Source of the DNA: Aureimonas altamirensis
Lineage (GTDB): Bacteria > Pseudomonadota > Alphaproteobacteria > Rhizobiales > Rhizobiaceae
Reading direction: 5' to 3'
Assembly (NCBI RefSeq): GCF_001463885.1
Contig: NZ_BBWQ01000015.1
Span: 1 to 64,000, forward strand
Length of the DNA: 64,000 nucleotides
Position numbers and translations under genes: made by a program. The notes beneath the pieces are model-generated. The model was not told the origin of the DNA. It was given only the letters and a program-made list of their open reading frames with translations, and did no database searches. Positions 7,827 through 40,699 of the stretch are shown one piece after another. How positions within the stretch are numbered: position 1 is the stretch's first letter; every line of letters begins with the position of its first letter.

Positions 7827-8627
7827 ATGAGTGTGGACGTCAAGGCGGCTACCCTGGCCTGGCGCGACGGACGCTTTGCCGCCAGCGAAAGGCCGGTGCC
7901 GGAAGAGGCCGCCGTCGCCGTGTCGATCAACGGGACGACACACGCCGTGATGATGGCGACCCCCTCAGACCTGGAGGATATGGCGCTGGGGCTGGCGCTG
8001 AACGAGCGGATCGTCCGCACGATCGACGAAGTCGAGCGGCTTGAGATGGAGTCGGTCGATGGCGGTTACGACTGCCGTCTCTGGCTGGTGCCGCAGCGGG
8101 CAGCGACCTATGTGGCGCGCCGTCGCCAGATGACGGGCCCGGTCGGCTGCGGCCTGTGCGGCGTGGAATCGCTCGAATACGCCACCGTTTCCCTGCCGAA
8201 GGCCCGCGATACGCTGGCGGTGGAGCCGGCGCAGATTTCCCAGGCGATGGAGGAGATGGCGGAAGGCCAGGTCCTTGGTCGCCGCACCCGCGCGGTGCAT
8301 GCCGCGGCGTTCCACAGGCAGGGGATGGGCTGCATCGTGATCCGCGAAGATGTCGGCCGGCACAATGCACTGGACAAGGTCACGGGCCATCTTGCGGCCT
8401 CGGGCGCGGAACCGGCACTCGGTTTCCTGACGATCACCAGCCGACTTTCCGTCGAGCTGGTGCAGAAGGCGGCGATGATGGGTTGCGGCCTGATTGCCGC
8501 CATATCCGTGCCGAGCGCGCTTGCGCTTCGCGAGGCGGACATGGCCGGCATCACCGTGGTAGCCGTTGCGCGCGGCGAGGCCTTCGAAATCTTTACCCAT
8601 CCGCAGCGGATCGTGGGCGCAGGCTGA
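7827..8627 (+). CDS. fdhD: Formate dehydrogenase accessory sulfurtransferase FdhD
   Basis: FdhD passes sulfur from a cysteine desulfurase to the molybdenum-bis-MGD cofactor of formate dehydrogenases. The 266-residue product has the conserved CxxC pair in GCGLCG (Cys108 and Cys111) and the REDVGRHNALDKV segment near residue 172 that binds the cofactor. ATG 7827 has a GTGAGG ribosome site 9 nt upstream. No formate dehydrogenase structural gene is in the window, so it must act on an enzyme encoded elsewhere. Its stop is only 5 nt before the first 308-bp tandem unit, so transcripts reading past fdhD would enter the array. Confidence 0.93.
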   Translation: MSVDVKAATLAWRDGRFAASERPVPEEAAVAVSINGTTHAVMMATPSDLEDMALGLALNERIVRTIDEVERLEMESVDGGYDCRLWLVPQRAATYVARRRQMTGPVGCGLCGVESLEYATVSLPKARDTLAVEPAQISQAMEEMAEGQVLGRRTRAVHAAAFHRQGMGCIVIREDVGRHNALDKVTGHLAASGAEPALGFLTITSRLSVELVQKAAMMGCGLIAAISVPSALALREADMAGITVVAVARGEAFEIFTHPQRIVGAG

Positions 8628-8635
8628 GCATGTTC

Positions 8636-8663
8636 TTGAACGTCCGCGCCGATGTGATAATAT
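8636..8663 (+). promoter_or_regulatory. Sigma70-like promoter of repeat unit 1
   Basis: TTGAAC at 8636-8641, a 16-nt spacer, then TAATAT at 8658-8663. Predicted +1 falls at 8670-8671, on the first base of the inverted repeat. Confidence 0.6.
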
Positions 8664-8670
8664 TCATACC

Positions 8671-8813
8671 AAGGGGGTGATGTTGCCCGGCTTCGGTCGG
8701 GACCGGCATTCGCGCCGGCCCCTTCTGGGTTACTTCCAGACCAGTGTTAGGCTGCAACCGAACAACGTGATCCGAAGTACCGCCTTCCGAAGTTTCACAA
8801 ACATCACCCCCTT
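8671..8813 (+). ncRNA. Candidate small structured RNA, unit 1
   Basis: Closed by a perfect 14-bp stem, AAGGGGGTGATGTT (8671-8684) with AACATCACCCCCTT (8800-8813). Inside are a CCCGGC-TTCG-GTCGGG tetraloop hairpin, a CCGGC-ATTCGC-GCCGG hairpin and a bulged pairing of GGTTACTTC with GAAGTACC. The inner TCAGG/CCTGA pairing of the other units is weakened here (TTAGG against ACGTGA). A CGCGGC-AGGAC-GCCGCG hairpin lies just 3' of the core and could be part of the transcript or its end. The strand is inferred from the promoter. Expression is not shown. Confidence 0.55.
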
Positions 8814-8943
8814 TCGGCTGCACGCGGCAGGACGCCGCGAGCGAAAATCCTCTATCCTATCGAGTTTCTGTTTGTCAGTAGACGATTCATGGAGGTGCCG
8901 CATTGGCGGCGCAGAGGAGCGTCGGCGCAGCTCAACAGCGTTC

Positions 8944-8971
8944 TTGAACGTCCACGCGGATGTGATAATAT
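8944..8971 (+). promoter_or_regulatory. Sigma70-like promoter of repeat unit 2
   Basis: TTGAAC at 8944-8949 and TAATAT at 8966-8971, spacer 16 nt, predicted start at about 8978-8979. Confidence 0.6.
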
Positions 8972-8978
8972 TCATGCC

Positions 8979-9121
8979 AAGGGGGTGATGTTGCCCGGCT
9001 TCGGTCGGGACCGGCATTCGCGCCGGCCCCTTCTGTGTTACTTCCAGACCAGTGTCAGGGTCCAACCAAACAGCCTGATCCGAAGTACGACCTTCCGAAG
9101 TTTCACAAACATCACCCCCTT
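8979..9121 (+). ncRNA. Candidate small structured RNA, unit 2
   Basis: Same architecture as unit 1 with an intact 14-bp closing stem (8979-8992 with 9108-9121). TCAGG/CCTGA pairing is intact although the loop sequence differs. In the hairpin 3' of the core, a C-to-T change still pairs through a G-U (GCGGC with GCTGC), a mild sign that structure is kept. Confidence 0.55.
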
Positions 9122-9251
9122 TCGGCTGCACGCGGCAGGATGCTGCGCGCGACAATCCTCTATCCTATCAAGTTTTGATTTGTCAGCAGCCAATTCATGG
9201 AGGGTGCCGCATTGGCGGCGCAGCGGATCGTTCGCGCAGGCCTACCGCGTC

Positions 9252-9279
9252 TTGAACGTCCATGCGGATGTGATAATAT
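9252..9279 (+). promoter_or_regulatory. Sigma70-like promoter of repeat unit 3
   Basis: TTGAAC at 9252-9257 and TAATAT at 9274-9279, spacer 16 nt. Identical hexamers to the other units although the flanking spacer is diverged. Confidence 0.6.
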
Positions 9280-9286
9280 TCATGCC

Positions 9287-9428
9287 AAGGGGGTGATGTT
9301 GCCCGGCTTCGGTCGGGACCGGCATTCGCGCCGGCCCCTTTCGGGTTACTTCCAGACCAGTGTCAGGCGCCAACCGAACACCCTGATCCGAAGTACCACT
9401 TTCCAAAGTTTCACAAACTTCACCCCTT
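9287..9428 (+). ncRNA. Candidate small structured RNA, unit 3 (closing stem damaged)
   Basis: The 5' arm is unchanged, but the 3' arm reads AACTTCACCCCTT (9416-9428): one A-to-T change and one missing C. This breaks the otherwise perfect 14-bp stem without a matching change in the 5' arm. The hairpin after the core is also shortened. This unit may be decaying. Confidence 0.45.
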
Positions 9429-9559
9429 TCGGCTGCACCAGGCAAGACGCCGCGCGCACGAATCCTCTATCCTATCCATTTTTGATTTGTCAGTAGCTGT
9501 TTCATAGAAAGCACGGCACAGGCGGCGCAGAGAGGCGTCGACGCAGCGCAACAGCGTTC

Positions 9560-9587
9560 TTGAACGTCCACGCGGATGTGATAATAT
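9560..9587 (+). promoter_or_regulatory. Sigma70-like promoter of repeat unit 4
   Basis: TTGAAC at 9560-9565 and TAATAT at 9582-9587, spacer 16 nt, predicted start at about 9594-9595. Confidence 0.6.
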
Positions 9588-9594
9588 TCATGCC

Positions 9595-9737
9595 AAGGGG
9601 GTGATGTTGCCCTGCTTCGGTCGGGACCGGCATTCGCGCCGGCCCCTTCTGGGTTACTTCCAGACCAGTGTCAGGCGCCAACCGAACACCCTGATCCGAA
9701 GTACCACTTTCCGAAGTTTCACAAACATCACCCCCTT
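9595..9737 (+). ncRNA. Candidate small structured RNA, unit 4
   Basis: Closing stem intact (9595-9608 with 9724-9737). The first hairpin has a G-to-T change (CCCTGC) that costs one pair. The conserved CU-rich string follows at about 9773-9786, after which the sequence leaves the repeat consensus and runs antisense toward the end of the M42 peptidase gene. Confidence 0.5.
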
Positions 9738-9829
9738 TCGGCTGCACGGGGCAGGACGCCGCGCGCATGAATCCTCTATCCTATCCAGTTTTGATTCGTC
9801 ACCAGCCGCTGGCTACCAGTAGCTTGTCG

Positions 9830-10996
9830 TCAGTCGCGGTCTTCGCTGCCCGGGTCGGAATCTTCCGCCAGTTCCTGTGCGGCTTCTGCTGCCGGCTGAC
9901 GGGTGAACCCTTCAAGCCCCGCATGCAGGTTGCGATCCCGCTCGATCTCCACCGGTGAGGTGGCATAGGCGGTGATGAGCTCCGTCAGCGAGCGCAAGGC
10001 ATGGATGTGAATGCGCTCCCACCCGTGCGAGGCGTCGACGCCGAACGTGACGAGCGCGGTGCGGACGTCGTGCCCGGCCTCCACCGCCGAAGCGGAATCC
10101 GAGCGGTAGTAGCGGAACACGTCCTTCTGGTACCGGATGTCCTCGTCCTGGCAGAGCCGGACGAGCTTCTTGGTCAGATGATAGTCGAACGGTCCGGTCT
10201 GGTCGGCCATGGCGATGGTGACGCCGAACTCCGAAGAGTTCTGCCCCGGTGCAGTCGTGCCATTGTCCACCGCCACCATGGAGGCGACATCCGGCGTCAG
10301 GATGGACGATGCGCCGACCCCGACCTCCTCGGCAATGGTGAACAGCCAGTGGATGTCCACCGGCGTCACGGTCTTCTCGCGCTCCAGCGCCTCTATTGCG
10401 GCGAGCATGATGGCCACGCCGGCCTTGTTGTCGAGGTGGCGCGAGACGATGAAGCCATTGTCCAGAAATTCGGGCTGTGGATCGATCGCGACGATATCGC
10501 CCACCTCTATGCCCAGTCGCGCCAGTTCGCGGCCATCGCGTGACAGGGCGTCGACGCGCAGCTCCACATGCGGCCAACCGACGGGATGGCTGTCCACGGC
10601 ATCGTTGAATGTGTGGCCGGACGCCTTCAACGGCAGGATCGTGCCGCGATAGGAGCCCGTATCGGCAAAGATGGTGGCTCTGGCGCCTTCGGCGAAGCGC
10701 GCGGACCAGTGCCCGATCGGCACAAGCTCGAGGCGGCCATTGGGCTTCAGCGCCTTCACCTGTGCACCCAGCGTATCGACGTGACTGACGATGGCGCGCG
10801 CCGAAGCGCGGCGGCTTCCCTGCCGCAATGCCCGAATGGCGCCGCGCCGTGTCAGCTCCACGCGCAGGCCGAGGCGCTGCAACTCGTGCGTTACGTGCCG
10901 CACGATCGTATCCGTATAGCCCGTCGGGCTCGGTATACGCAGAAGGGCCTTGAGTTGGTCGGTCAGATAATGGCTGTCGATCGAAAGCCGGGGCAC
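9830..10996 (-). CDS. M42-family aminopeptidase of the NAGGN osmoprotectant system
   Basis: A 388-residue zinc peptidase. Metal and catalytic motifs of M42/M28 co-catalytic peptidases are visible: VSHVDTLG near residue 69 (His, Asp), HLDNKAG, the catalytic glutamate pair AEEVGVG and VDNGTT. It is the third gene of the NAGGN cluster (amidotransferase, ligase, peptidase), which in other proteobacteria always carries this particular M42 subfamily. Turnover or trimming of the osmolyte dipeptide is a reasonable guess but unproven. Start ATG 10996; 69 nt separate it from the ligase stop. Its 3' end faces the tandem repeat array. The last ~20 residues are acidic and low-complexity. Confidence 0.9.
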   Translation of the reverse strand: MPRLSIDSHYLTDQLKALLRIPSPTGYTDTIVRHVTHELQRLGLRVELTRRGAIRALRQGSRRASARAIVSHVDTLGAQVKALKPNGRLELVPIGHWSARFAEGARATIFADTGSYRGTILPLKASGHTFNDAVDSHPVGWPHVELRVDALSRDGRELARLGIEVGDIVAIDPQPEFLDNGFIVSRHLDNKAGVAIMLAAIEALEREKTVTPVDIHWLFTIAEEVGVGASSILTPDVASMVAVDNGTTAPGQNSSEFGVTIAMADQTGPFDYHLTKKLVRLCQDEDIRYQKDVFRYYRSDSASAVEAGHDVRTALVTFGVDASHGWERIHIHALRSLTELITAYATSPVEIERDRNLHAGLEGFTRQPAAEAAQELAEDSDPGSEDRD

Positions 10997-11065
10997 GATG
11001 AACTCCTGCGCCGCTACGTTGTATGCGGCCTATAGCTGATTTCACGAGGCGCTTGCGAGACGGAT

Positions 11066-12856
11066 CTAGACTCTTTTGCGTTTGCGCTGCTGCGCCTTGC
11101 GTACGGAGGCGGGGATGGACAGCGGGAAGAGCAGGTCCACGAAACGCTCCGCCGTGGGTTGCGGCTCGTGGTTGGCAAGGCCGGGGCGCTCATTGGCTTC
11201 GATGAACACATAGTCGGGCAGGCGCGGATCCTTGACCATCAGGTCGACCCCGCAAACCGGTATGTCGATCGCACGTGTGGCGGCCACGGCGGCCTCCACC
11301 AGTTGCGGATGCACCATGCCGGTCACGTCGTGGATCGTGCCGCCCGTGTGCAGGTTGGCGGTTCCGCGGACCTTGACCTCCACGCCTTCGGGCAGGACGT
11401 CATCCAGGCCGAAACCTGCCTTGCGCACCGAACGCTCCGTCTCGTCGTCCTGTGGGATGCGGCTTTCGCCGCCTGTCGCGGCGCTGCGGCGGCGCGACAG
11501 GCGTTCGATGAGGTCCCTGATGGAATGGCGCCCATCGCCGACTACCACCGGCGGGCGCCTGATCGCCGCGGCCACGACGCGAAAATCGATGACCACAAGT
11601 CGCAGATCGTCTCCCTGGAAACAGGATTCCAGAAGGACCCGCTCACATTGCTCACGCGCATCCCGGATCGCGGCCTTGGCGTGGTCGAGCGTCTCAACGC
11701 CAACCGCGATACCGCGGCCTTGCTCGCCCCGGGCTGGCTTGACGACGATGGAGCCATGCGCCTCGATGAAGGAAGCGAGGTCCTCCTCGCTCTCCGGCGC
11801 GGTTATCTGCGCCGGTACGGCAACACCGGCTCCTTCCACGAGGCGGCGGGTGGCGCTCTTGTCGTCGCAGATGGACATGGCGACGGCCGATGTCAGTTCC
11901 GACAGGCTCTCGCGGCAGCGGACGCTTCTGCCCCCATAGGTAAGCCGGAAAAAGCCGCCGGATGCGTCGATCACGTCAACCGATATGCCGCGCCTGCGGG
12001 CTTCGTCGACGATGATGCGGGCATAGGGATTGAGATCGTCAAAGGCGTCGCCCGCGCCCGTGAAGAGCTGTTCGTTGATCTGGTTTCGCAGCTTCACCGC
12101 GAAGAAGGGGACGCGATAGAACCCCAACCGCTCGTACAGCCCGATCGCGGGCTGGTTGTCGTGCATCACGGACAGGTCCATGTAGGCGCAGCTGCGCGCC
12201 TGGAAGTGTTCGGCAAGCTGGCGCACCAGCGCCTCGCCGATGGCAGGATGCTGGGCCTGCGGATCGACGGCCAGACACCAGAGGGACGACCCTTTCTCCG
12301 GATCGTCGAAGGCGCGTGCGTGGTCGACGCCGGTTACCGTGCCGACGATCTGCCGCGTCGTTTCGTCTTCGGCCACCAGCCACGTCAGCGCGCGGCTGTC
12401 GCGGTTCTGCCAGAAGAAGTCCGGATCCACAGTCACCATGCGCCGGCTTTGGTAGATACGGTTGATCTCCGCCGCATCGGCCACCGACGCCAGGCGGCGG
12501 ATGCGGAAGCCTGCCGGCCGCCGGCGACTGGGCCGGTAGGTGCTGAGGTCCAGCCGGTAGGTATGGGACGGATCGAGGAACAATTCCTGCGGCGCGTAGG
12601 AAATCAGGACGTGCGGATCGCGGACATAGAAAGCGATGTCGCGCCGGTCGGGTCCTTCTTCGTTCAGCCGCTTTACCAGTGCCGACGGATCGTCGAAGGT
12701 TTGCCCGAACAACAGCCGGCCCCATCCGCAGTCGACCGAGGCGTCGGGCTGCGCCGTGTCGTCTGCCGCCGCATGCGGCTCCTTGGCGAATGTGCGCATG
12801 CGCTTCAGACGCCGTTCGTAACCGGCTGCGGCCTTGCCGTGGTCGTCGCCTGACAT
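11066..12856 (-). CDS. ngg: N-acetylglutaminylglutamine synthetase
   Basis: Builds N-acetyl-L-glutaminyl-L-glutamine, precursor of the osmolyte NAGGN, from glutamine, acetyl-CoA and ATP. The 596-residue protein is a fusion: a GNAT acetyltransferase domain at about residues 95-265 (DLSVMHDNQPAIGLYERLGF is the typical end of the fold), then an ATP-grasp ligase domain at about 325-580 with VVKPARGEQGRGI and FIEANERPGL. ATG 12854-12856 (MSGDDHGK) lies 5 nt after the asnO stop; a frame ATG 10 codons earlier would overlap asnO. Operon position and fusion order match the described system, so confidence is high. Confidence 0.93.
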   Translation of the reverse strand: MSGDDHGKAAAGYERRLKRMRTFAKEPHAAADDTAQPDASVDCGWGRLLFGQTFDDPSALVKRLNEEGPDRRDIAFYVRDPHVLISYAPQELFLDPSHTYRLDLSTYRPSRRRPAGFRIRRLASVADAAEINRIYQSRRMVTVDPDFFWQNRDSRALTWLVAEDETTRQIVGTVTGVDHARAFDDPEKGSSLWCLAVDPQAQHPAIGEALVRQLAEHFQARSCAYMDLSVMHDNQPAIGLYERLGFYRVPFFAVKLRNQINEQLFTGAGDAFDDLNPYARIIVDEARRRGISVDVIDASGGFFRLTYGGRSVRCRESLSELTSAVAMSICDDKSATRRLVEGAGVAVPAQITAPESEEDLASFIEAHGSIVVKPARGEQGRGIAVGVETLDHAKAAIRDAREQCERVLLESCFQGDDLRLVVIDFRVVAAAIRRPPVVVGDGRHSIRDLIERLSRRRSAATGGESRIPQDDETERSVRKAGFGLDDVLPEGVEVKVRGTANLHTGGTIHDVTGMVHPQLVEAAVAATRAIDIPVCGVDLMVKDPRLPDYVFIEANERPGLANHEPQPTAERFVDLLFPLSIPASVRKAQQRKRKRV

Positions 12857-12861
12857 CGGCC

Positions 12862-14637
12862 TCAGATCTCCTGGCTCTGCAGCCACAGCTCAAGCAGCGC
12901 GACCTGCCAGAGCTCCGATCCACGCAGGGGCGTGATCCGATCGGTCGGGTTGGCGAAGAGGTCGTCCAGGTAATCCTTGCGGAATAGCTGGCGTTGCCGT
13001 GCCTTGTCGCTGGTGAGCGTATCGCGGACCATATCCAGATAGGGGCCCTGGATGTATTTGAGCTGGGGAACCGGAAAGTAGCCCTTCTTGCGGTCGATCA
13101 CCTCGGAGGGGATCACCTGCCGCGCAGCCTCCTTGAGCACGCCCTTGCCGCCCTGGCGCAAATTTTCCGCCGAGGGGATGCGAGCTGCCAGCTCCGCCAG
13201 CTCGTGGTCAAGGAACGGCACGCGGGCCTCCAGCCCCCAGGCCATCGTCATGTTGTCGACGCGCTTCACGGGATCGTCCACCAGCATGATGCGGCTATCG
13301 AGGCGCAACGCCTTGTCGACCGGATCGTCGGCACCCGGCAGCCCGAAATGGGTGCGGACGAAGTCCAGGCTGACATCGCTGCCGGCATGCCATTCCGGTG
13401 ACAACTGGCGGCGCAGGGTTTCGTCGCTGCGGTCGAAGAAGGCCTTCGAATAGGAGGCGAGCGGATCGTTGGCGCCGGCGAGGGGTGGGTACCAGTGGTA
13501 GCCACCGAAGACTTCGTCGGCGCCCTGTCCCGACTGCACGACCTTGATGTGCTTCGAGACTTCCCGCGAGAGGAGGTAGAAGCCGATATTGTCGTAGGAG
13601 ACCATGGGCTCCGACATGGCGGCGATGGCGCCCGGCAGGTTCTCCATCAGTTCCGAGCCCGGCACGAAGATCTTGTGATGCTTCGTATCGTAGTGCCGGG
13701 CGATCAGGTCGGAATACTCGAACTCGTTGCCGACCTCGCCATTGGCATCCTCGAAGCCGATGGAGAAGGTGCTGAGGCCCGTCTGTCCGGCCTCGGCCAG
13801 AAGGCCGACGATCAGCGACGAGTCGACCCCGCCGGACAAAAGCACGCCAACCGGAACATCGGCGACCATGCGTCGCTCGACGGCGGTGCGCAGCGATTCC
13901 AGCACCGCATCCCGCCAGTCGTCGGCGGTCATCGCCTCGTCGCCCGGCTGCGGGCCGTAGGAGGGGTTCCAGTAGACCGTGTCCTCGAAGGAGCCGTCGG
14001 GCTCGATCAGGCGCACGGTCGCCGGCGGAAGCTTGCGCACGCCCTTGATGATGGTCAGCGGTGCCGGCACCACGGCATGGAACGTCATGTAATGGTGCAG
14101 GGCCTCGCGGTCGATCGACGTATCGACATCGCCCGTCCTCAAAATCGACTGCAGGGACGAGGCGAAGTACAGCCGTTCCGGCGTCTGCGACAGGTAAAGC
14201 GGCTTGATGCCGAAGCGGTCGCGCGCCAGCATGACGCGGCCGGTATCCCGCTCGTGGATGGCGAACGCGAACATGCCCTTGAACCGCTCCACGCAGGACG
14301 GACCCCACGCGTGGTAGGCCTTGGCGATCACCTCTGTGTCGCCGTGCGAAAAGAACCGGTACCCCATGTCCAGGAGTTCGGCCCGCAGGGCCGGATAATT
14401 GTAGATGCAGCCATTGAAGGCGAGGGTGAGGCCGAGATCGGCATCGACCATCGGCTGCTGCGCCTTTTCCGACAGGTCGATGATCTTCAGGCGGCGGTGG
14501 CCGAAGCCGACATTGCCGCGCACGACCTGACCCGCTCCGTCGGGACCGCGCCGCGCAAGGCAATTGCCCATGCGTTCGATCCGCTCCGGGGAGGCCATCC
14601 TTCCATCGAAGCGAATTTCACCGCAAATTCCGCACAT
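12862..14637 (-). CDS. asnO: N-acetylglutaminylglutamine amidotransferase (asparagine-synthetase-like)
   Basis: Converts the terminal carboxylate of acetyl-Gln-Gln to the amide, giving the neutral osmolyte NAGGN. The product is 591 residues. Cys2 of MCGICGE is the class-II glutaminase nucleophile, so the start is fixed at ATG 14637. Residues 1-190 form the glutaminase domain, and the synthetase domain follows with the pyrophosphate loop SGGVDSS near residue 263. First gene of the NAGGN operon; the ligase follows after 5 nt. The 148-nt gap to the divergent MaoC gene must hold the operon promoter, which is expected to be osmotically induced; I could not point to a specific operator. Confidence 0.93.
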   Translation of the reverse strand: MCGICGEIRFDGRMASPERIERMGNCLARRGPDGAGQVVRGNVGFGHRRLKIIDLSEKAQQPMVDADLGLTLAFNGCIYNYPALRAELLDMGYRFFSHGDTEVIAKAYHAWGPSCVERFKGMFAFAIHERDTGRVMLARDRFGIKPLYLSQTPERLYFASSLQSILRTGDVDTSIDREALHHYMTFHAVVPAPLTIIKGVRKLPPATVRLIEPDGSFEDTVYWNPSYGPQPGDEAMTADDWRDAVLESLRTAVERRMVADVPVGVLLSGGVDSSLIVGLLAEAGQTGLSTFSIGFEDANGEVGNEFEYSDLIARHYDTKHHKIFVPGSELMENLPGAIAAMSEPMVSYDNIGFYLLSREVSKHIKVVQSGQGADEVFGGYHWYPPLAGANDPLASYSKAFFDRSDETLRRQLSPEWHAGSDVSLDFVRTHFGLPGADDPVDKALRLDSRIMLVDDPVKRVDNMTMAWGLEARVPFLDHELAELAARIPSAENLRQGGKGVLKEAARQVIPSEVIDRKKGYFPVPQLKYIQGPYLDMVRDTLTSDKARQRQLFRKDYLDDLFANPTDRITPLRGSELWQVALLELWLQSQEI

Positions 14638-14785
14638 GGATCGTCCCTGCCTTTCCTTGGATTTCCGTCTGGTGCCTGCACATATGGGCCACGATGCTGC
14701 GCTGCCCACCCCCGATGCTTTGCAACGGCGGCCTGGACAGGGCATAGGAAGACGCGAACGGGACGACGGGCGGAAGGGTTGCCGA

Positions 14786-15280
14786 ATGAGCGAAGTGTCG
14801 GAGGCCGATCTCAGGCAAAGGCTGGTGCCTCTGGAAACCTATCGAGGCTACGTCGACGGCGACGCGTTCGTGTCCGACTGGCTGACGGTAGACCAGGCGA
14901 TGATCGACACGTTCGCGGATGCGACGCACGATCACCAGTTCATCCATGTCGATCCTGCACGTGCGAAGGCCGAGGGGCCTTTCGGCGGCACGGTAGCGCA
15001 TGGCTTCCTGTCGCTGTCGCTGCTGTCGACACTTGCCTATCGCGCCATGCCCTTTGTCGAGGGGGCTACCATCGGCGTCAATTACGGGTTCGAGCGCGTT
15101 CGCTTCGTTTCGCCGGTGCGCAGTGGCGCGCGGGTGCGGGGCTGTTTCCGCCTCAAGGGCCTGAACGAGAGGGCCGTGACGATCCAGTCCACCTGGGAGA
15201 CGACCGTGGAGGTCGAGGGGGCGGCAAAGCCCGCATTGACGGCCGAGTGGATCACCGTCTCAATGATCCAGCCTGCATGA
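14786..15280 (+). CDS. MaoC-like dehydratase (hotdog fold, enoyl-CoA hydratase type)
   Basis: A 164-residue single-hotdog protein. The hydratase-2 motif is present: Asp and His in DATHDHQFIHVDP (about residues 47-59), then FGGTVAHGFLSLSLL. Such proteins hydrate trans-2-enoyl-CoA or related acyl-CoA substrates. ATG 14786 has a GGAAGGG ribosome site. The stop sits inside the first copy of a 14-bp tandem duplication that also carries the ribosome site of the following gph gene. The substrate cannot be assigned. Confidence 0.88.
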   Translation: MSEVSEADLRQRLVPLETYRGYVDGDAFVSDWLTVDQAMIDTFADATHDHQFIHVDPARAKAEGPFGGTVAHGFLSLSLLSTLAYRAMPFVEGATIGVNYGFERVRFVSPVRSGARVRGCFRLKGLNERAVTIQSTWETTVEVEGAAKPALTAEWITVSMIQPA

Positions 15281-15301
15281 GGGAGAGTGCATGAGGGAGA
15301 G
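15274..15301 (+). repeat. 14-bp tandem duplication of a stop/ribosome-site segment
   Basis: TGCATGAGGGAGAG occurs twice in direct succession (15274-15287 and 15288-15301), followed by TGCATGAG. The first copy contains the MaoC stop. Each copy carries an ATGA and a GGGAG ribosome site, so gph is preceded by a duplicated initiation region. Confidence 0.85.
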
Positions 15302-15304
15302 TGC

Positions 15305-15991
15305 ATGAGCGATAGCCCGACCTGGCCGAAGGCCATCCTGTTCGATCTCGACGGAACGCTTGTGGACTCCGTCCCCGATATCCATGCGGCGCTGAACGAT
15401 ACGTTGGCCAGCTACGGCGAGCCGCCCTTTACCCTGGAGGCCGTGACAGGCTTTGTCGGGCAGGGTGTGCCGAAGCTGATCGAGCGTGCCTATGCGGCGC
15501 TCGACAAGCCCATCGATCCGGCCAGCCGCGACAAGGTGGTGGAGCGCTTCCTTGCCATCTACGGGCCGCGCGCCACCGAACTGACGACCCTCAACGCGGG
15601 CGCAAGTTCCATCGTGCGTCAGCTGGACGATGCGGGCTACGGACTTGGCGTCGTCACCAACAAGCCGGGCTCAGAGACGGCGACGATCCTTTCGCATTTC
15701 GGCCTGTCCGATGCGATGGATATCGTGGTCGGCGGCGACGCCGGCCCGGCGAAAAAACCGGCGCCGGATCTTCTGCTGCTGGCGTGCGAAAGGCTCGGTG
15801 TCGCGCCTTCCGATACGATGTTCGTCGGCGACAGCGAAAACGACGTCGCAGCGGCGCAGGCGGCCGGCATGGCGGTCGCGGTCCTGCGCGGTGGCTACAC
15901 GTCCATACCGGCCGAAGCGCTGGGCGCCGATTATGTACTGGAGCGACTTGACCAATTGCCGCAGGCTATCATGTCGATAAAGGCGGTGTGA
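15305..15991 (+). CDS. gph: Phosphoglycolate phosphatase (HAD superfamily)
   Basis: Dephosphorylates 2-phosphoglycolate formed by DNA repair or Rubisco side activity. Haloacid-dehalogenase motifs are complete: FDLDGTLVDS at about residues 13-22, the motif-II TNK, Lys in AKKPAPD and GDSENDV. Length is 228 residues from ATG 15305, which has GGGAG 7 nt upstream; a GTG at 15287 would add six residues. It is separated from MaoC by the duplicated ribosome-site segment and is probably in the same transcript. HAD phosphatases are promiscuous, so the exact substrate is a family-level inference. Confidence 0.87.
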   Translation: MSDSPTWPKAILFDLDGTLVDSVPDIHAALNDTLASYGEPPFTLEAVTGFVGQGVPKLIERAYAALDKPIDPASRDKVVERFLAIYGPRATELTTLNAGASSIVRQLDDAGYGLGVVTNKPGSETATILSHFGLSDAMDIVVGGDAGPAKKPAPDLLLLACERLGVAPSDTMFVGDSENDVAAAQAAGMAVAVLRGGYTSIPAEALGADYVLERLDQLPQAIMSIKAV

Positions 15992-40623: not shown

Positions 40624-40699
40624 TGGTGCCGCTTAGGTGACTCGAACACCTGACCCCATCATTACGAATGATGTGCTCTACCAACTGAGCTAAAGCGGC
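40624..40699 (-). tRNA. tRNA-Thr (anticodon CGT)
   Basis: 76 nt including an encoded CCA. The acceptor GCCGCTT pairs with AAGCGGC. D arm GCTC-AGTTGGTA-GAGC; anticodon stem CATCA / TGATG with loop TTCGTAA, giving anticodon CGT; T arm AGGTG-TTCGAGT-CACCT. All stems are perfect. Confidence 0.97.

Follow-up and report, generated by a model that had tools for sequence, protein, structure and literature searches.

A tandem array in Aureimonas altamirensis of conserved micropeptide units that probably work like type I toxin-antitoxin modules

The question raised by this locus is what is encoded by a short tandem array in a contig of Aureimonas altamirensis (NZ_BBWQ01000015.1), of which positions 1 to 64,000, called here the window, were analysed. 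The array lies between fdhD (plus strand, 7827-8627) and a gene for an M42-type peptidase (minus strand, 9830-10996), which form a convergent pair; the gene names in the window are our own reading of the translations. The initial annotation described four tandem units of 308 bp, each with a promoter and a structured RNA, and this arrangement was confirmed together with its coordinates, as the start-to-start spacing of the four copies is 308, 308 and 308 bp. Tandem Repeats Finder placed the array at 8602-9808, with a period of 308, 3.9 copies and 88% matches, and in the own genome the genome searches found no copies other than these four. Beside the array, a minus-strand cluster (window 9830-14745) carries M42-type peptidase, ATP-grasp/acetyltransferase-like and asparagine-synthase-like genes, presumably the synthesis set for the osmolyte N-acetylglutaminylglutamine amide. 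The window also holds a perfect 14-bp tandem repeat of 2.6 copies (TGCATGAGGGAGAG) at 15274-15309, and its sole tRNA, tRNA-Thr (cgt), is on the minus strand at 40624-40699.

Each unit has the promoter motif TTGAAC-16-TAATAT that had been annotated, located 7 nt 5' of the start of a stem (Table 1). A generic sigma-70 scan of the array gave 0 promoters, since TTGAAC/TAATAT has 8 of 12 consensus matches and the scan demands 9, and the scan for terminators listed none in the array. The stem is formed by an inverted repeat at the two ends of a core of about 143 nt. It was annotated as 14 bp in all units, which is correct for units 1, 2 and 4, where it is perfect, while in the distal arm of unit 3 (about 9416-9428) one nucleotide is deleted and another is mismatched. 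Unit 3 (window 9285-9431) is the only unit whose Shine-Dalgarno (SD) arm is damaged and whose peptide, described below, has R replaced by W; this copy could therefore be decaying or leaky. The cores are strongly structured, as had been proposed: for each of the six cores folded (four plus-strand and two minus-strand), 0 of 200 dinucleotide shuffles were equally stable.

The minus strand of the core gives a more stable fold than the plus strand and also contains a conserved short ORF. Read on this strand, each unit has in order a hairpin, an SD sequence, a GTG start, an ORF of 22 codons, a GC-rich hairpin and an anti-SD sequence, and through the inverted repeat the SD pairs with the anti-SD 115 nt downstream. 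We consider it probable, with some reserve, that each unit of 308 bp uses both strands to form an RNA-controlled micropeptide module whose working resembles that of a type I toxin-antitoxin system.

Table 1. Positions in the window of the features of the four units
Feature	Position	Strand	Remark
Unit 1 micropeptide ORF, 22 codons + TAA (VKLRKAVLRITLFGCSLTLVWK)	8730..8798	-	
Unit 2 micropeptide ORF (VKLRKVVLRIRLFGWTLTLVWK)	9038..9106	-	
Unit 3 micropeptide ORF (VKLWKVVLRIRVFGWRLTLVWK)	9346..9414	-	SD arm damaged
Unit 4 micropeptide ORF (VKLRKVVLRIRVFGWRLTLVWK)	9654..9722	-	
Unit 1 SD arm (AAGGGGGTGATGTT)	8800..8813	-	complement of 8671-8684
Unit 1 anti-SD arm	8671..8684	-	on plus strand, 5' end of putative antisense RNA
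Unit 2 SD arm	9108..9121	-	
Unit 2 anti-SD arm	8979..8992	-	
Unit 3 SD arm	9416..9428	-	1 base shorter, one mismatch
Unit 3 anti-SD arm	9287..9300	-	
Unit 4 SD arm	9724..9737	-	
Unit 4 anti-SD arm	9595..9608	-	
Unit 1 putative antisense-RNA promoter TTGAAC-16-TAATAT	8636..8663	+	
Unit 2 putative antisense-RNA promoter	8944..8971	+	
Unit 3 putative antisense-RNA promoter	9252..9279	+	
Unit 4 putative antisense-RNA promoter	9560..9587	+	
Unit 1 candidate mRNA promoter CTGACA-16-GATAGA (weak)	8851..8878	-	by eye
Unit 2 candidate mRNA promoter CTGACA-16-GATAGA (weak)	9159..9186	-	by eye
Unit 3 candidate mRNA promoter CTGACA-16-GATAGA (weak)	9466..9493	-	by eye
Unit 4 candidate mRNA promoter GTGACG-16-GATAGA (weaker)	9775..9802	-	by eye
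Unit 1 putative antisense RNA core, 143 nt	8671..8813	+	
Unit 2 putative antisense RNA core	8979..9121	+	
Unit 3 putative antisense RNA core	9287..9428	+	
Unit 4 putative antisense RNA core	9595..9737	+	

Relatives of the element were found by covariance models and patterns, and 37 copies from Aureimonas, other Hyphomicrobiales genomes and phages were aligned; these copies are related, so the counts given below are not independent. Clear copies were found in 5 of the 21 genomes of the GTDB genus to which A. altamirensis, A. frigidaquae and A. fodinaquatilis belong. The genome studied here has four, G005 has a tandem pair, and a single copy is present in each of A. altamirensis, A. frigidaquae and A. 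fodinaquatilis. The tandem pair of G005 and the single A. altamirensis copy occupy the same fdhD-peptidase site as the array. The copies of A. frigidaquae and A. fodinaquatilis have a gene for an XRE-like protein after them; that of A. fodinaquatilis is also adjoined by a small-terminase gene (Pfam Terminase_2), and the same stretch occurs in an IMG/VR viral contig. Three further viral contigs carry the element. Tandem arrays were also found elsewhere, with two and three copies in G582 and two in G094, and in G094 the alphaproteobacterial sRNA BjrC1505 of Rfam (L088 524-662) is located about 0.8 kb away from the tandem elements.

The covariance-model search that the initial annotation had recommended was made with two models, R1 from 11 copies, which matched 10 of 394 family genomes, and R2 from 26 copies, which matched 6 of 397 order-wide genomes including the own genome; the two genome sets overlap, and sets of more than 40 genomes were scored with stricter filters. 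Weak matches were left out, namely six rows at E 0.001-0.01, two at E 0.17-0.55, six at E 0.2-0.9, and 14 of 16 genomes in one search at E up to 1. In another, 115 of 397 genomes matched at E up to 1, and those among the 115 that were left out included G395, G356 and G582, later recovered by R2. The partial match of G658 (L126) was kept among the 37, the second, partial match of G320 (L092) was left out, and at L088 one opposite-strand match was removed by a tighter E-value. Two pattern matches, L037 (Saprospiraceae) and L042 (a viral contig), were rejected because they had no such ORF or stem. No match was given by blastn of the A. fodinaquatilis copy against phages, by blastn of the window copy against plasmids, or by tblastn of the peptide against phages; blastn of the G700 copy gave one partial match to a Bosea plasmid and matched two equally long phage records, of which one was examined.

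The micropeptide ORF is conserved on the minus strand, and its substitutions fit that frame. A closed ORF of 21-24 codons is present in 34 of the 37 copies, and an intact SD-like arm precedes it in 33 of these; the three others are L089 and L123, which lost the stop, and the partial L126, while L125 has a broken SD arm. The start codon is GTG, TTG or CTG about eight nt 3' of the SD-like arm, and the ORF ends directly 5' of the GC-rich hairpin. In a column-shuffle coding test of the 11 closest copies, the observed amino-acid similarity was reached in 5 of 1000 shuffles when scored by BLOSUM of the differences and in 6 of 1000 by identity, with a weaker echo (20-22 of 1000) in the antisense frame whose third positions coincide with those of the ORF. 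When 18 copies were tested over 22 codons, the values were 0 of 500 (BLOSUM) and 4 of 500 (identity), against 80 of 500 and 13 of 500 in the echo frame, and this set had 0 stops where 19.8 were expected. Judged by these substitution patterns, the short ORF (below 60 codons) appears to be under selection. The ten peptides computed have a net charge of +2 to +7, and their hydrophobic residues alternate about a central turn such as FGW or FGC. Their hydrophobic moment is higher for beta than for alpha structure in six of the ten and even in one, and the two peptides from the window do not lean to beta.

The closing stem is likewise kept by compensating changes. In a plain MAFFT alignment of 11 copies, 5 of its 14 pairs were changed on both sides, and among the 37 copies 8 of 14 were, with 93.8% of cells paired. 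The covariation score of the whole structure in the 37 copies was 0.443, compared with 0.05-0.14 when the partners were slid; the 37-copy alignment leans towards the model because it was fitted to it. The initial annotation had set coding-type against stem-preserving substitution in homologues, and the relatives show both, the coding type being on the minus strand. When the RNA was folded in silico, the long-distance 5'-3' pairing sequestered the SD: in 11 copies the predicted SD was unpaired at 0.02-0.22 in the full-length RNA, and at 0.34-0.66 in 10 of the 11 when the 3' arm was removed. The exception was L041, whose SD was 16% unpaired even without the 3' arm.

These results also bear on the view taken by the initial annotation, that the units are four non-coding, trans-acting small RNAs of the plus strand, in which case the minus-strand ORF would be accidental. 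The closing stem alone does not distinguish the strands, and the plus strand even has slightly more of its cells paired (98.7% vs 96.6-96.8%); the conserved plus-strand promoter pattern also fits such RNAs. On the other hand, the conserved SD, start, frame and stop are on the minus strand, the minus-strand fold has the lower energy in 11 of 11 and 36 of 37 copies (the opposite strand of L125 folds better), and in the internal stem of L040 the minus strand retains 18 of 19 pairs, compared with 16 of 20 for the plus strand, with little difference in other copies. We therefore consider it very unlikely that the units are such RNAs and nothing else; the claim of a solely non-coding RNA with other targets was not upheld, as a minus-strand ORF with coding-type substitution was found.

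In the proposed two-strand module, the plus-strand promoter would have another role. The pattern TTGANN-16/17-TANNNT, 3-18 nt from the arm, was found in 22 of 26 copies and in 27 of 13,000 letter-shuffled flanks. A wider opposite-promoter pattern, which has no null of its own, was found in 28 of 37 copies; this fixed 37-copy pattern misses L084 (TTGAAA-16-TATTAT) and L087 (TTGAAA-17-TATCGT). Hexamers and spacing are kept while the spacer sequence diverges, and about 7 of 37 copies, including four of the five in G582, have a weak promoter or none. In copies linked to an XRE gene the promoter bases overlap the start region of that gene, and coding constraint may help to preserve them; to copies without an XRE-like gene such a constraint does not apply. 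Because the plus-strand promoter recurs in diverged relatives, it is likely that an RNA begins at the stem, as had been predicted, and this RNA would be a putative antisense RNA opposite the candidate toxin gene. The candidate promoter of the minus strand, CTGACA-16-GATAGA, occurs in units 1-3 and in A. altamirensis, with variation by eye in unit 4 and in the G005 versions. It is weakly sigma-70-like and is the weakest element of the module.

An XRE-like gene directly follows the element on the same strand in 14 of 37 copies, phage copies included (13 by a motif script and L118 by eye), with frames of 67-135 aa. It suggests another possibility, namely a leader-peptide attenuator, in which the ORF and the long-range stem would control the downstream XRE gene and the Aureimonas array would be a relic or decoy without its gene. 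Similarly placed Brt RNAs of Bartonella are reported to attenuate adjacent XRE genes, according to the part of the source available to us (PMC8070961). However, no XRE-like gene is next to 23 of the 37 copies, the window array and 19 others, yet the ORF is still closed in 21 of the 23, which argues that the unit is self-contained and more than a leader for that gene. In the window array no XRE gene lies downstream, and the next gene that way, fdhD, is oppositely oriented. Moreover, the peptide sequence itself is conserved, and the opposite promoter is not required for attenuation. Attenuation thus seems to us an unlikely function of the unit.

The XRE linkage also suits an antisense-controlled micropeptide with a non-toxic task, for example a phage regulatory peptide that acts with an XRE repressor. 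It would agree with the 14 linked copies, several of them with a spacer dyad by eye, and with the cationic, partly beta-amphipathic peptides; yet 23 copies have no XRE-like gene beside them and the layout closely matches that of toxin modules, and we judge a non-toxic task quite unlikely. The apparent dyad was seen by eye in the upstream-promoter spacer of L104, L113, L008, L007 and L133 (TCGTACATAGTACGA in L008), which in these XRE-linked copies seems as expected of an autoregulated operator. Just beyond the window, an XRE HTH gene (L103, G000:C15:68411-68611) has 58% identity to an HTH that follows the element in a phage. No convincing element was found upstream of it, and this gene could be a relic or a trans-acting regulator.

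The position before XRE genes raises the question of the Bartonella Brt RNAs. In genus g115, which we take to be probably Bartonella, R2 matched 1 of 61 genomes with the stricter filters: G789 has two clear copies before XRE-like genes, and the search of the 60 other genomes gave none. Among six XRE-like loci examined in three g115 genomes, the element was found only at the two of G789. A model scan of 0.4 Mb each of G796 and G802 gave a best E of 0.47. A search for the arms, which covered 1.2 Mb of the 1.94 Mb of G796 and 0.4 Mb of the 2.6 Mb of G802, gave one chance-like match; this search missed one of six known elements. In the sections of the source available to us, Tu et al. describe Brt1-9 as multicopy structured RNAs directly 5' of, and sense to, XRE HTH (trp) genes, non-coding, genus-specific and 194-203 nt long, with Trps of 108-152 aa (PMC5387305). 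The element resembles them in its position before XRE genes in 14 of 37 copies, and the window array differs. As described, the non-coding nature reported for the Brt RNAs also differs from the 21-24-codon ORF found here.

Turning back to the type I-like module, its closest design is found in AapA/IsoA of Helicobacter (Epsilonproteobacteria), where, according to the portion of PMC6733600 available to us, the SD is kept covered by pairing between the distant 5' and 3' ends until the mRNA is trimmed at its 3' end. The RNA proposed by the initial annotation is best read as the antisense partner of a micropeptide mRNA. As far as the accessible parts of PMC6733600 and PMC8309996 describe them, the two share a small ORF (30 codons there and 21-24 here), an SD-sequestering long-distance pairing, which is predicted in silico here, an opposite-strand antisense RNA, which is putative here and predicted from the promoter pattern, and several copies per genome. 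They differ in the antisense promoter, which lies beyond the anti-SD here and, as we understand the same portion of PMC6733600, inside the ORF for IsoA3. The element further differs in its GTG, TTG or CTG starts, its XRE-like linkage in 14 of 37 copies, and several peptides that are beta- rather than alpha-amphipathic; the type I membrane toxins described in the available part of PMC8309996 are alpha-helical. The likeness to AapA/IsoA would be one of working; a sequence search of PDB chains at E up to 10, with limited sensitivity for peptides so short, gave no match that would indicate a relationship.

The ldr/Rdl and ibs/Sib loci of E. coli are also repeated in tandem, and every repeat combines a small toxin ORF with an antisense RNA that overlaps it. 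Their peptides are hydrophobic helices, differing from those of the element, and we know of no 5'-3' SD pairing of its kind in these loci.

According to the mechanism that we propose, the minus strand would give a short mRNA running from the first hairpin to the anti-SD. In the completed transcript the 3' anti-SD would pair over 14 bp with the SD, and because the SD is covered, the full-length mRNA would be silent. The SD would be exposed where the 3' arm is removed or late, and the product would be a cationic peptide of 22 residues. From TTGAAC-16-TAATAT the plus strand would give an RNA that starts at the anti-SD and is complementary to SD, ORF and anti-SD; being fully complementary, it could block or degrade any open mRNA. 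We infer that both RNAs are made and interact, and that the peptide either is toxic or modulates growth. The array would then be a chromosomal copy of a phage-carried module, which in phages is followed by an XRE repressor-like gene.

No known family was found to include the element, in agreement with the initial annotation. Rfam searches at the gathering threshold and at E up to 10 gave no overlapping family, three weak matches being at chance level, and no covariance model of an sRNA family in Rfam 15, including any alpha-r family present there, matched the elements. The peptides tried had no match in Pfam, PHROGs, NCBIfam or PDB, where the sequence search at E up to 10 matched no chain, with the sensitivity limited by the short peptides. 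Among the publications listed by our literature search, none was seen to describe the element family or a type I module in Aureimonas. Type I modules are reported from few phyla, as stated in the part of PMC12390103 available to us, and they are hard to find because their peptides are tiny. We tentatively suggest that the elements could form an undescribed Hyphomicrobiales family of phage-borne, chromosomally amplified modules, in which a 3' anti-SD locks the SD and the antisense RNA begins at this lock. Their cationic peptide might be a beta-hairpin, in contrast to the helical type I toxins. The strong covariation, the readable coding signal and the promoter signature together provide a model with which the family can be searched. 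If the Brt RNAs prove to be members, the reported non-coding regulators would be micropeptide mRNAs. The module is also a warning that structured "small RNAs" before XRE genes in these bacteria may be coding.
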